A DNA stretch of 50,766 bases from Secundilactobacillus hailunensis (GTDB lineage Bacteria; Bacillota; Bacilli; Lactobacillales; Lactobacillaceae). The DNA lies in the NCBI RefSeq assembly GCF_005405185.1, contig NZ_BJDO01000017.1, forward strand, positions 1-50,766, written 5' to 3'. Position 1 is the first letter of the stretch; each line of letters starts with the position of its first letter. Shown one piece after another: positions 11,880 to 13,710 of the stretch. A program made the position numbers and the translations under genes. The notes beneath the pieces were generated by a model that saw only the letters and a list, made by a program, of their open reading frames with translations, did not search any database and was not told the DNA's origin.

Positions 11880-13118
11880 TTGACTGAACCAGAACCTGCT
11901 GCCGTCAAACCGAAACGTCCTGTCTGGCGTCGCAACTTATTCGTCCTGTGGTTTGGTACCTTTATGGCTGGCCTTGCATTTAGCGAAATCATGCCGTTCT
12001 TATCCCTTTATGTGGATACGTTAGGTCACTTCACCAAAGATCAACTTAATTTATATTCTGGAATTATCTTTTCGGCAACCTATTTAGTTACTGCCATTGC
12101 TAGTCCAATCTGGGGCCGGCTGGCTGATCGTAAAGGCCGCAAGTTAATGTTATTGCGCGCCTCGCTTGGAATGGCTCTTGTCCTAGGACTCATGGGCGCC
12201 GTGACCAACGTGTGGGAATTAATGGCCCTGCGCTTTATTCAGGGAATTTTTTCCGGCTACATCAGTAACGCCAATGCGTTGATGGCCACTCAAGCTCCCA
12301 AGAGCAAAAGCGGTCAGGCACTGGGGACCCTATCCACCGGTTACGTTGCCGGCTCACTATTCGGCCCATTAGTTGGTGGTGCCTTAGCTGAAGTCTTCTC
12401 CTACCGGGTCACCTTCTTTATTACCGGTATCCTGTTATTATCCGTCTTTTTTGTCAGTTACTTTTTCGTTACGGAATCGTTTACCCCGGTTAAAAAGGAA
12501 AATATGCTGTCAAGCAAGGCTGTTCTGGGAGTGATCAACCATCCTAAATTGATCTTAGGGATGTTCATTACGACCTTGATTATTCAGGCCTCCAACATGT
12601 CGATTTCCCCAATCCTGTCACTGTATGTCAGAGAAATTATGCCGAAGGGGTCGGCAATTACGCTGTTTAGCGGAATCGTTGCTGCTATTCCAGGGGTCGC
12701 GACCCTCTTTGCGGCACCGCAGCTGGGCCGGTTAGGTGATAAGATCGGGACTGAATTGATTTTATCGATCGGGTTTATTTTTGCCATTCTGGTCTATCTG
12801 CCGATGGCCTTCGTGACTAACGTCTGGCAGTTGATGTTCCTGCGGTTTCTCATCGGTATTTCTAACGCAACGATGCTGCCAGCGGTTCAAACTATCCTGT
12901 CGAAAAATACGCCGCCGCAAGTCACTGGCCGAATCTTTAGCTGGAACCAATCCTTTCAAGCGGTGGGCAGCGTGCTGGGGCCCATGATCGGTTCAACGGT
13001 ATCAACGGTCTTTGATTACTCGGGCGTCTTCATTTCAACTTCGATCCTGGTCCTGCTCAACTTCTTGTTAGTTTGGCATAATACGGCAAGTTTGAGGAGA
13101 GGGCATTTGAAACATTAG
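11880..13118 (+). CDS. MFS multidrug efflux transporter
   Basis: The 412-residue protein has about 12 membrane segments. The MFS loop 2-3 signature GRLADRKGRKLMLL and the motif-C-like GPLVGGALAE at the end of TM5 mark a drug:H+ antiporter (12-TM DHA1 type). It starts at TTG (11880-11882); no ATG fits the conserved N-terminal cytoplasmic segment, and the SD is weak (AAAGAAG). Substrates cannot be predicted. Its stop lies two bases before an unusual long hairpin element (13120-13230). Confidence 0.88.
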   Translation: MTEPEPAAVKPKRPVWRRNLFVLWFGTFMAGLAFSEIMPFLSLYVDTLGHFTKDQLNLYSGIIFSATYLVTAIASPIWGRLADRKGRKLMLLRASLGMALVLGLMGAVTNVWELMALRFIQGIFSGYISNANALMATQAPKSKSGQALGTLSTGYVAGSLFGPLVGGALAEVFSYRVTFFITGILLLSVFFVSYFFVTESFTPVKKENMLSSKAVLGVINHPKLILGMFITTLIIQASNMSISPILSLYVREIMPKGSAITLFSGIVAAIPGVATLFAAPQLGRLGDKIGTELILSIGFIFAILVYLPMAFVTNVWQLMFLRFLIGISNATMLPAVQTILSKNTPPQVTGRIFSWNQSFQAVGSVLGPMIGSTVSTVFDYSGVFISTSILVLLNFLLVWHNTASLRRGHLKH

Positions 13119-13119
13119 A

Positions 13120-13230
13120 GTGTGGAAGCAAGCGATTAGAGAGTGGAGTGCAAGCTGGCTTAGTCAAAAATCCCGAACTTGGATTTATGGCTAAGTCAGC
13201 TTGCATGCAACTCTCTGCTTGCTGGAGCAC
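13120..13230 (+). repeat. Long hairpin element, copy A
   Basis: This is a nearly fully self-complementary 111-nt segment. Outer helix AGCAAGC (13127-13133) pairs with 13217-13223. A 4-nt bulge GATT follows, then AGAGAG/CTCTCT (13138-13143 with 13211-13216). A 5x5 internal loop TGGAG/TGCAA (13144-13148, 13206-13210) comes next, then a 25-nt arm (13149-13173) pairing with 13181-13205 across one mismatch, closed by a 7-nt loop ending CTT. It shares its architecture and constant motifs with copy B at 32583-32697. It lies in the 3' region between convergent MFS and rpmE2 genes. Confidence 0.85.
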
Positions 13231-13248
13231 GTTTAGTCCATATAAAAT

Positions 13249-13296
13249 AGAAGAGCCACATCTAACAAGTAACAGTGTGTTAGATGTGGCTCTTCT
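13249..13296. terminator. Perfect 19-bp inverted repeat, probable bidirectional terminator
   Basis: Arms 13249-13267 and 13278-13296 are perfectly complementary (AGAAGAGCCACATCTAACA) with a 10-nt loop. Flanking T-runs are interrupted (ATTCTC; ATTTTATAT), so termination is likely but less certain than for other stems here. Confidence 0.6.
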
Positions 13297-13311
13297 ATTC
13301 TCTAAAAAGTC

Positions 13312-13344
13312 AAAAAAAGCCACCCACACCAAGTGTGAGCGGCT
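13312..13344 (-). terminator. rpmE2 terminator
   Basis: On the minus strand AGCCGCTCACAC pairs with GTGTGGGTGGCT around a TTG loop, followed by seven T. Confidence 0.85.
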
Positions 13345-13607: not shown

Positions 13608-13710
13608 AATTACATTCTCCTTTGCCCTGAATCATGTACTGAAACAGAGATTGATTATTATCGTCAACCTAAATAGAATATCATAAGAATTAACCTAATT
13701 CAAGTCAGTC

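Follow-up and report, generated by a model that had tools for sequence, protein, structure and literature searches.

A hairpin repeat family of about 125 bases, frequent at stop codons, in Secundilactobacillus hailunensis and other Lactobacillaceae

Two hairpins in a 50,766-nucleotide stretch of Secundilactobacillus hailunensis DNA (the window, meaning the whole stretch analysed) were described in a first-pass annotation as sharing one architecture with differing arms, and were proposed to belong to a repeated family selected for shape. The locus therefore raises the questions of whether such a family exists, whether its fold is kept as RNA or as DNA, and what the hairpin might do beside the genes that it adjoins.

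Two hairpins of one build

The features of the window are given below, with positions and scores from a covariance model (R1) built from an alignment (A1) of 28 S. hailunensis copies.

11880-13118, + strand: MFS-type transporter gene, upstream of copy A
13116-13118, + strand: TAG stop codon of the MFS-type gene; its AG forms the first two bases of copy A
13117-13241, + strand: hairpin repeat copy A, matching positions 1-125 of the model at 135.6 bits
13127-13133, + strand: copy A outer helix, 5' strand (partner 13217-13223)
13134-13137, + strand: copy A 4-nt left bulge, GATT
13138-13144, + strand: copy A inner helix AGAGAGT, 5' strand (partner 13210-13216)
13148-13166, + strand: copy A long arm, 5' strand, with variable sequence (partner 13188-13206)
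13174-13180, + strand: copy A terminal loop, CGAACTT
13188-13206, + strand: copy A long arm, 3' strand
13210-13216, + strand: copy A inner helix, 3' strand
13217-13223, + strand: copy A outer helix, 3' strand
13228-13252, + strand: copy A right foot CACGTTT and A-rich tail (family consensus GGCTATRTAAAA)
13246-13299, strand not given: perfect hairpin distinct from copy A, in the gap between it and the L31 gene
32582-32706, + strand: hairpin repeat copy B, matching the model at 103.2 bits

Both hairpins lie where they had been placed and share the same build, with fold energies far beyond those of shuffled sequence: copy A folds at -66.8 kcal/mol (z -9.1) and copy B at -77.1 kcal/mol (z -13.2), and neither value was equalled in 200 dinucleotide shuffles. 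The left end of copy B, a C followed by the element's AAGGTG, does not lie at a stop codon. As annotated, the fold has a left bulge of 4 nt, GATT in copy A and GTTA in copy B, and the AGAGA/TCTCT helix with its long variable arm. The internal loop proved conserved as claimed, but the predicted fold gives it as 3x3 and not 5x5; likewise, the terminal loop ends in CTT in both copies, but the stated length of 7 nt holds for A and not for B, which folds with 6 nt. A search of the whole window with R1 returned four matches at E <= 1, namely A, B and the reverse strands of each.

The perfect hairpin at 13246-13299, which we read as the terminator of two convergent genes, is altered in sequence in relatives that retain copy A. 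The window also holds an L31-Firmicutes ribosomal protein leader, a known Rfam family, at 13617-13649 on the - strand. A search of the whole window against Rfam (release 15, 4227 families) yielded nothing at A or B at gathering score, and the annotation had matched them with certainty to no named family; with an E-value threshold, applied to 13050-13330 only, there were sub-threshold matches, all with miRNA-type names.

A dispersed family in the Lactobacillaceae

The family proposed from two copies is large. A blast search of the S. hailunensis genome with copy A found 36 places and R1 gave 103 matches; after opposite-strand echoes were merged and copies hidden in arrays were added, these amounted to 65 distinct places, some of them partial. 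Three further copies, absent from the R1 matches and outside the 65, adjoin IS ends. The unit is a single hairpin of about 125 nt, and most copies retain the bulge, internal loop and tip. Tandem copies recur at a period near 123 (for example C8:63560 and 63683; 64870, 64993 and 65115), and most clusters run head to tail, although inverted pairs also occur (L206, L212, L023).

Under the stricter filters of the multi-genome scans, in which at most eight candidates were scored per genome, R1 matched 182 of 397 sampled Lactobacillaceae genomes and 24 of 40 genera (E <= 0.001), so that a covariance model, the check proposed in the annotation, recovered more copies both in S. hailunensis and in its relatives. 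In a class-wide sample of 398 genomes, three besides S. hailunensis matched at E <= 1e-6, all outside the order; within the order, this sample gave no R1 match other than S. hailunensis itself under the same filters. Two genomes of one genus outside the order (G791 and G693) hold matches L296, L297, L300, L301, L303, L304 and L306, partly in tandem at a period of about 123. When named genomes were scanned for the tip pattern, the matches listed came mainly from Lentilactobacillus and Secundilactobacillus, with some from Levilactobacillus and also from unrelated genomes. Weak model matches (35-38 bits) in Shouchella shacheensis (L107:2941, L156:5600, L158:4335 and L062:304) possibly represent a related repeat in another genus. 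Distant blastn searches with copy A found no match in plasmid or phage records; 30 stretches in viral contigs carry the tip pattern, one of which R1 matches weakly (26.9 bits).

The open-access PMC literature searched names no such Lactobacillaceae repeat family; among lactobacilli, PMC2267715 covers L. johnsonii. The family of ~125-base hairpin repeats is apparently undescribed so far.

Arms change while pairing is kept

In A1, both sides vary in 30 of 41 base pairs and 98.3% of cells are paired. The covariation score of 0.565 stands clear of the chance control (0.194 in shuffles, s.d. 0.011), with none of 500 shuffles reaching it, and sliding the 3' partners by 1-3 columns lowered the score to at most 0.110. 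The arms thus covary while remaining paired, and this covariation, together with the 65 places in S. hailunensis and the 182 family genomes, upholds the proposal of a repeated hairpin family selected for shape.

The same pattern is seen at sites that stayed in place. By flank, 56 of the 65 S. hailunensis copies were assigned an ortholog in S. silagei (G162), the nearest relative, and 49 were compared, a set in which some assignments within arrays are wrong. Across their 2067 base pairs, 1759 were unchanged, 127 were altered on both sides and kept, 113 were altered on one side and kept, and 68 were broken, some but not all of the last being explained by wrong array assignment; unpaired positions differed at 258 of 1808. 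The double changes fell into 66 runs, 50 of them single pairs and 16 blocks of two or three adjacent pairs, and 57 of 86 double changes were double transitions. Single-pair runs and double transitions are what would be expected from G.U intermediates. At site A, six species retain the element with altered arms and intact pairing, and in most of them the sequence to its right is strongly different; the element is absent from G185, G253, G088 and G020 and unreadable in G139. The evidence that the fold is under selection is strong.

One strand's fold is kept

A test of G.U against A.C pairs addresses which strand carries that selection. A symmetric DNA hairpin is blind to the difference between G.T and A.C, because each becomes the other on the opposite strand. 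We used 36 of the 49 ortholog pairs (at most two broken pairs, left flank identity at least 0.8), with each genome taken once as the reference. Read on the + fold, one-sided changes comprised 85 G.U, 19 A.C and 34 other mismatches; on the - fold, there were 34 G.U and 82 A.C. Standing pairs, with G.U-consensus pairs left out, leaned the same way: G.U to A.C was 55 : 3 in A1, 140 : 12 in Lentilactobacillus, 132 : 28 in other named genomes, and 111 : 21 in S. hailunensis and 119 : 18 in S. silagei, the last two counts not being independent since the sites of these species are largely orthologous. Copy orientation was set mainly by the fixed loops.

Such an excess at fixed orthologous sites indicates that the fold of one strand is kept, and it makes a symmetric DNA cruciform less likely than a single-stranded + strand, be it RNA or ssDNA of one strand. 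The main alternative to strand selection is a strand-specific mutation bias, which is not suggested by the right flank, as this is rich in A and shows no enrichment of G and T. The ratio was 41 : 9 at stop-codon copies and 36 : 7 at those whose upstream 300 nt hold no same-strand gene, so the bias is not tied to a 3'-UTR position alone.

Copies gather at stop codons

Placement was examined for the 61 of 65 S. hailunensis copies that are at least 100 nt long, with ORFs and terminators taken from simple calls of our own; a copy was assigned to a stop codon if the stop of a same-strand ORF of at least 100 codons ended -6 to +11 nt from the element's first base. Among the 54 non-tandem copies, 24 adjoined a stop codon, 8 followed a terminator-like hairpin and T-run, 1 adjoined an antisense ribosome-binding motif and 21 fell in no class. 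Stop-codon copies made up 34 of 63 in S. silagei. For the named genomes, the best 150 of 332 matches taken together were used; here they made up 15 of 55 in Lentilactobacillus and 14 of 50 in the others, which are mainly Secundilactobacillus and Levilactobacillus. In a random intergenic background (1500 of 92,835), the respective shares were 1.3% for stop codons, 4.1% for terminators and 3.4% for antisense ribosome-binding motifs. Copies are thus strongly enriched at same-strand stop codons, with a smaller excess directly after terminators.

In 14 of 36 S. hailunensis copies near a same-strand ORF, the stop codon consists of a host T and the first two bases of the element, which in these copies starts with AAGGTG or AGAGTG. 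Copies distant from genes frequently start with AAGGTG after a C. A terminator-like signal lies within 200 nt downstream of only 9 of the 24 stop-codon copies. Comparison of left-flank k-mers gave weak leads only (T-runs and TGGATT), which leave the stop-codon preference unexplained. Divergence at the left junction was 31% at -5 to -1 against 4-7% at -40 to -16 (43 pairs); because the non-coding flank on the right averages more than half as much (29 pairs, with 12-26% per bin), we attach little weight to it.

Lentilactobacillus differs in placement. Of its 55 non-tandem copies in the named-genome set, 20 adjoin an antisense ribosome-binding motif, and a second class of element (AGTGAGCGG ... 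AGCTGTCCTA) forms tandem arrays. In Lentilactobacillus rapi, a five-unit array (L066:5736-6361) is flanked by the ribosomal protein L9 and DnaB helicase genes, which run in the same direction.

Extra 3' halves, exchanged arms and a landing IS

Full copies can be followed by a further 3' half. A right-half model matched 29 of 109 windows downstream of full copies, none of 114 upstream and none of 400 random windows, one of the 29 being a full tandem copy and three the outermost part only; a left-half model matched one of the same downstream windows and no upstream or random ones. With a 3'-half HMM, the extra halves were mostly 30-55 nt downstream of full copies, with serial ones extending to about 200 nt, and there was one weak solitary match 1334 nt away (L235:13255, E 0.032). 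When pairing was compared with that of up to 25 sampled 5' halves, 30 of 41 extra 3' halves paired best, or at worst second best, with the local 5' half, a set in which two halves come from full tandem copies and three control means were spoilt by failed duplex values. Because the units can contain local host flank (site 24), we take the extra halves to have arisen by tandem duplication on the spot, with the hairpin tip as one boundary. Four diverged copies (L222:3031, L258:7420, L232:10649 and L260:4024) have in common a stretch further downstream, AGTATTGAACAAATGG...CAGTTAAGAAG..., which may be an additional module or repeat.

Arms are also exchanged between loci. The arms of S. silagei L238 are those of L252 and not those of its own ortholog, and the arms of S. 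silagei L258:14855 are those of S. hailunensis L017. At S. silagei L234:17528-17652, a 5' arm of one type faces a 3' arm of another and the fold reaches -50.9 kcal/mol against -79.3 for the assigned S. hailunensis ortholog, as if left by recombination between inverted copies. At site A of S. silagei (L174:2718-2846), an AATC gained on the right arm pairs with GATT and abolishes the bulge, a correction resembling template switching; in S. hailunensis L023:3068, the internal loop has been ironed out.

Copies also decay. Copy B is internally deleted in S. silagei and persists as remnants only in several other relatives, so not every copy is needed. With element ends judged by tandem junctions and flank alignment, no clean empty site with defined ends was found among the relatives at site A or in the comparison of S. 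hailunensis sites (37 of 53 sites paired); site 42 was considered as an empty site and is not clean. Nor was a terminal inverted repeat bounded by a defined target duplication established from these junctions and alignments. Ten proteins flanking arrays, compared with Pfam, revealed no shared helper gene: nine belong to ordinary host families and one has no match.

One IS, found by its end, occurs at eight places in the S. hailunensis genome, seven identical and one diverged, and in all eight the junction falls at one and the same base within the hairpin (CRCGTTT^).

C80:1, C69:1, C21:1, C34:1, C36:26686, C55:13517, C55:4670, C60:10671 (S. hailunensis genome): IS ends L307-L314

Contigs C41 and C55 open with a putative other IS end, followed by TTTCGGC, the remainder of the element. 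The IS, known here by its ends alone, shows no obvious inverted repeat by eye.

Discussion

With moderate confidence, we favour an old, interspersed multi-copy repeat of BOX-like kind that acts as structured RNA and guards or sets mRNA 3' ends behind genes. The element would once have spread through trans-acting machinery. A copy behind a gene would form the start of the transcribed 3' untranslated region, where the RNA would fold into a long duplex starting about 10 nt past the stop codon. There the hairpin most likely sets or protects the mRNA 3' end, perhaps as a barrier to 3'-5' exonucleases, as an RNase III substrate or both, and the bulge and loops would position an RNase III cut. A 3'-end role would account for a preserved fold in arms whose sequence changes freely. 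Several results count against this reading: exact sharing of the stop codon's last two bases in only 14 of the 36 near-ORF copies, terminator-like signals within reach of only 9 of 24 stop-codon copies, the 68 broken pairs and the decay of copies such as B. Moreover, a purely 3'-UTR role does not predict an equal G.U excess in copies without an upstream gene, and the antisense ribosome-binding placement in Lentilactobacillus stands against a simple role of this kind.

Other explanations were weighed against the same observations. Hairpins of one strand serve as transposase substrates in REP sequences and at IS200/IS605 ends, and a strand-specific ssDNA mobile element, in which the + hairpin is such a substrate and the fold is selected during movement and not on RNA, would account for a one-strand fold kept equally with and without an upstream gene, for the bulge and loops kept in most copies, and for preferred landing places and tandem copies. 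We consider it unlikely, given compensation at sites that stayed put, the lack of an empty site with defined ends beyond the unclean site 42, and the distribution of the Y1 transposase: PF01797 is found in 140 of 397 family genomes, but 8 of 15 genus genomes have no match to it and all 15 carry the repeat, which sets it aside as a required helper. It is quite unlikely that there is no shape selection at all and that ectopic gene conversion and quasipalindrome (template-switch) arm correction maintain the hairpin. Arms common to different loci, the 16 runs in which adjacent pairs changed jointly, and the filled bulge and ironed-out loop fit such DNA upkeep; it should, however, treat the strands alike, whereas G.U far exceeds A.C on the + strand, and the preponderance of single-pair runs and double transitions and the persistence of bulge and internal loop in most of the 28 aligned copies also speak against it.

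Two further readings fare worse. An RNA-copied, SINE-like element, its RNA reverse-transcribed into new places, would leave 3' halves as 5'-truncated incomplete copies, in keeping with the one-strand fold and with the presence of 3' but not 5' halves beside full copies. The halves, however, lie near a full copy in all but the one weak case, may have local host flank between units and pair preferentially with the local 5' half; this proximity and local pairing fit tandem duplication with one end at the tip, and we regard reverse transcription as very unlikely. It is highly improbable that the family consists of transcription terminators or attenuators, even though strong hairpins sit directly behind genes and pneumococcal SPRITE repeats resemble terminators (PMC3049150): the hairpin has no T-tract behind it (over 135 S. 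hailunensis and S. silagei copies, the tail consensus reads TATRTAAAA), site A has its own separate downstream hairpin, and 8 of 54 non-tandem copies stand directly after existing terminator-like signals. A more elaborate RNA reading, which we consider quite improbable, is a Lactobacillaceae-wide element in which one 5' strand and alternative 3' strands allow hairpin switching, the 3' strands being duplicated from the tip and exchanged by gene conversion; it would either spread by way of its own + RNA or serve as a 3'-end control module at stop codons.

Like REP/BIME and RAYT-associated repeats, the family comprises many-copy extragenic palindromes that are partly clustered, but REPs are reported to measure 20-40 bp (PMC2817692, PMC3733652) and the unit here is about 125 nt with bulge and loops and a tandem period of about 123. 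In view of this size and of the genus genomes that carry the repeat without a Y1 transposase, REP/RAYT fits badly. From intrinsic terminators the family is set apart by its TATRTAAAA tail in place of a T-run. Correia (CE) and ERIC elements are also hairpin repeats, but belong to other groups of bacteria. When present in transcripts, they trigger RNase III or RNase E cleavage, according to PMC3049150. That paper also describes SPRITE as hairpin repeats downstream of genes, as here, but with a long U-rich tract where the Lactobacillaceae repeat has an A-rich tail.

BOX elements are the closest known kind, a likeness drawn from descriptions (modular, RNA-folding and at stop codons) and not from BOX sequences. 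PMC3049150 reports them in Streptococcus pneumoniae, S. mitis and S. suis, with 125 in one genome and few instances outside these streptococci; they consist of boxA, boxB and boxC, of which boxB is the variable module, have a predicted RNA fold in which one module may be absent or repeated, are transcribed at the tested loci and, at the very 3' end of 36 genes, supply the stop codon itself. The family described here likewise has a repeatable module, seen in the tip and 3'-half units after 29 of 109 full copies and in full-unit arrays, and frequently overlaps stop codons (24 of 54 non-tandem copies against the 1.3% background). It differs from BOX in that a single hairpin is the unit, in that the part repeated alone, tip plus 3' half, is not boxB-like in position, and in its spread over 24 of 40 sampled genera.

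The stop-codon placement, extra 3' halves, arm exchange and IS all go beyond the first-pass annotation, and the repeat explains where one IS inserts and why several contigs of the assembly end where they do. The one-strand comparison of G.U with A.C can distinguish selection on RNA from the upkeep of a DNA palindrome. Here is a common repeat under clear structural selection that is yet without an Rfam model at gathering score. Dozens of natural experiments per genome run in parallel, from which the effect on an mRNA of a long hairpin just past its stop codon could be read.
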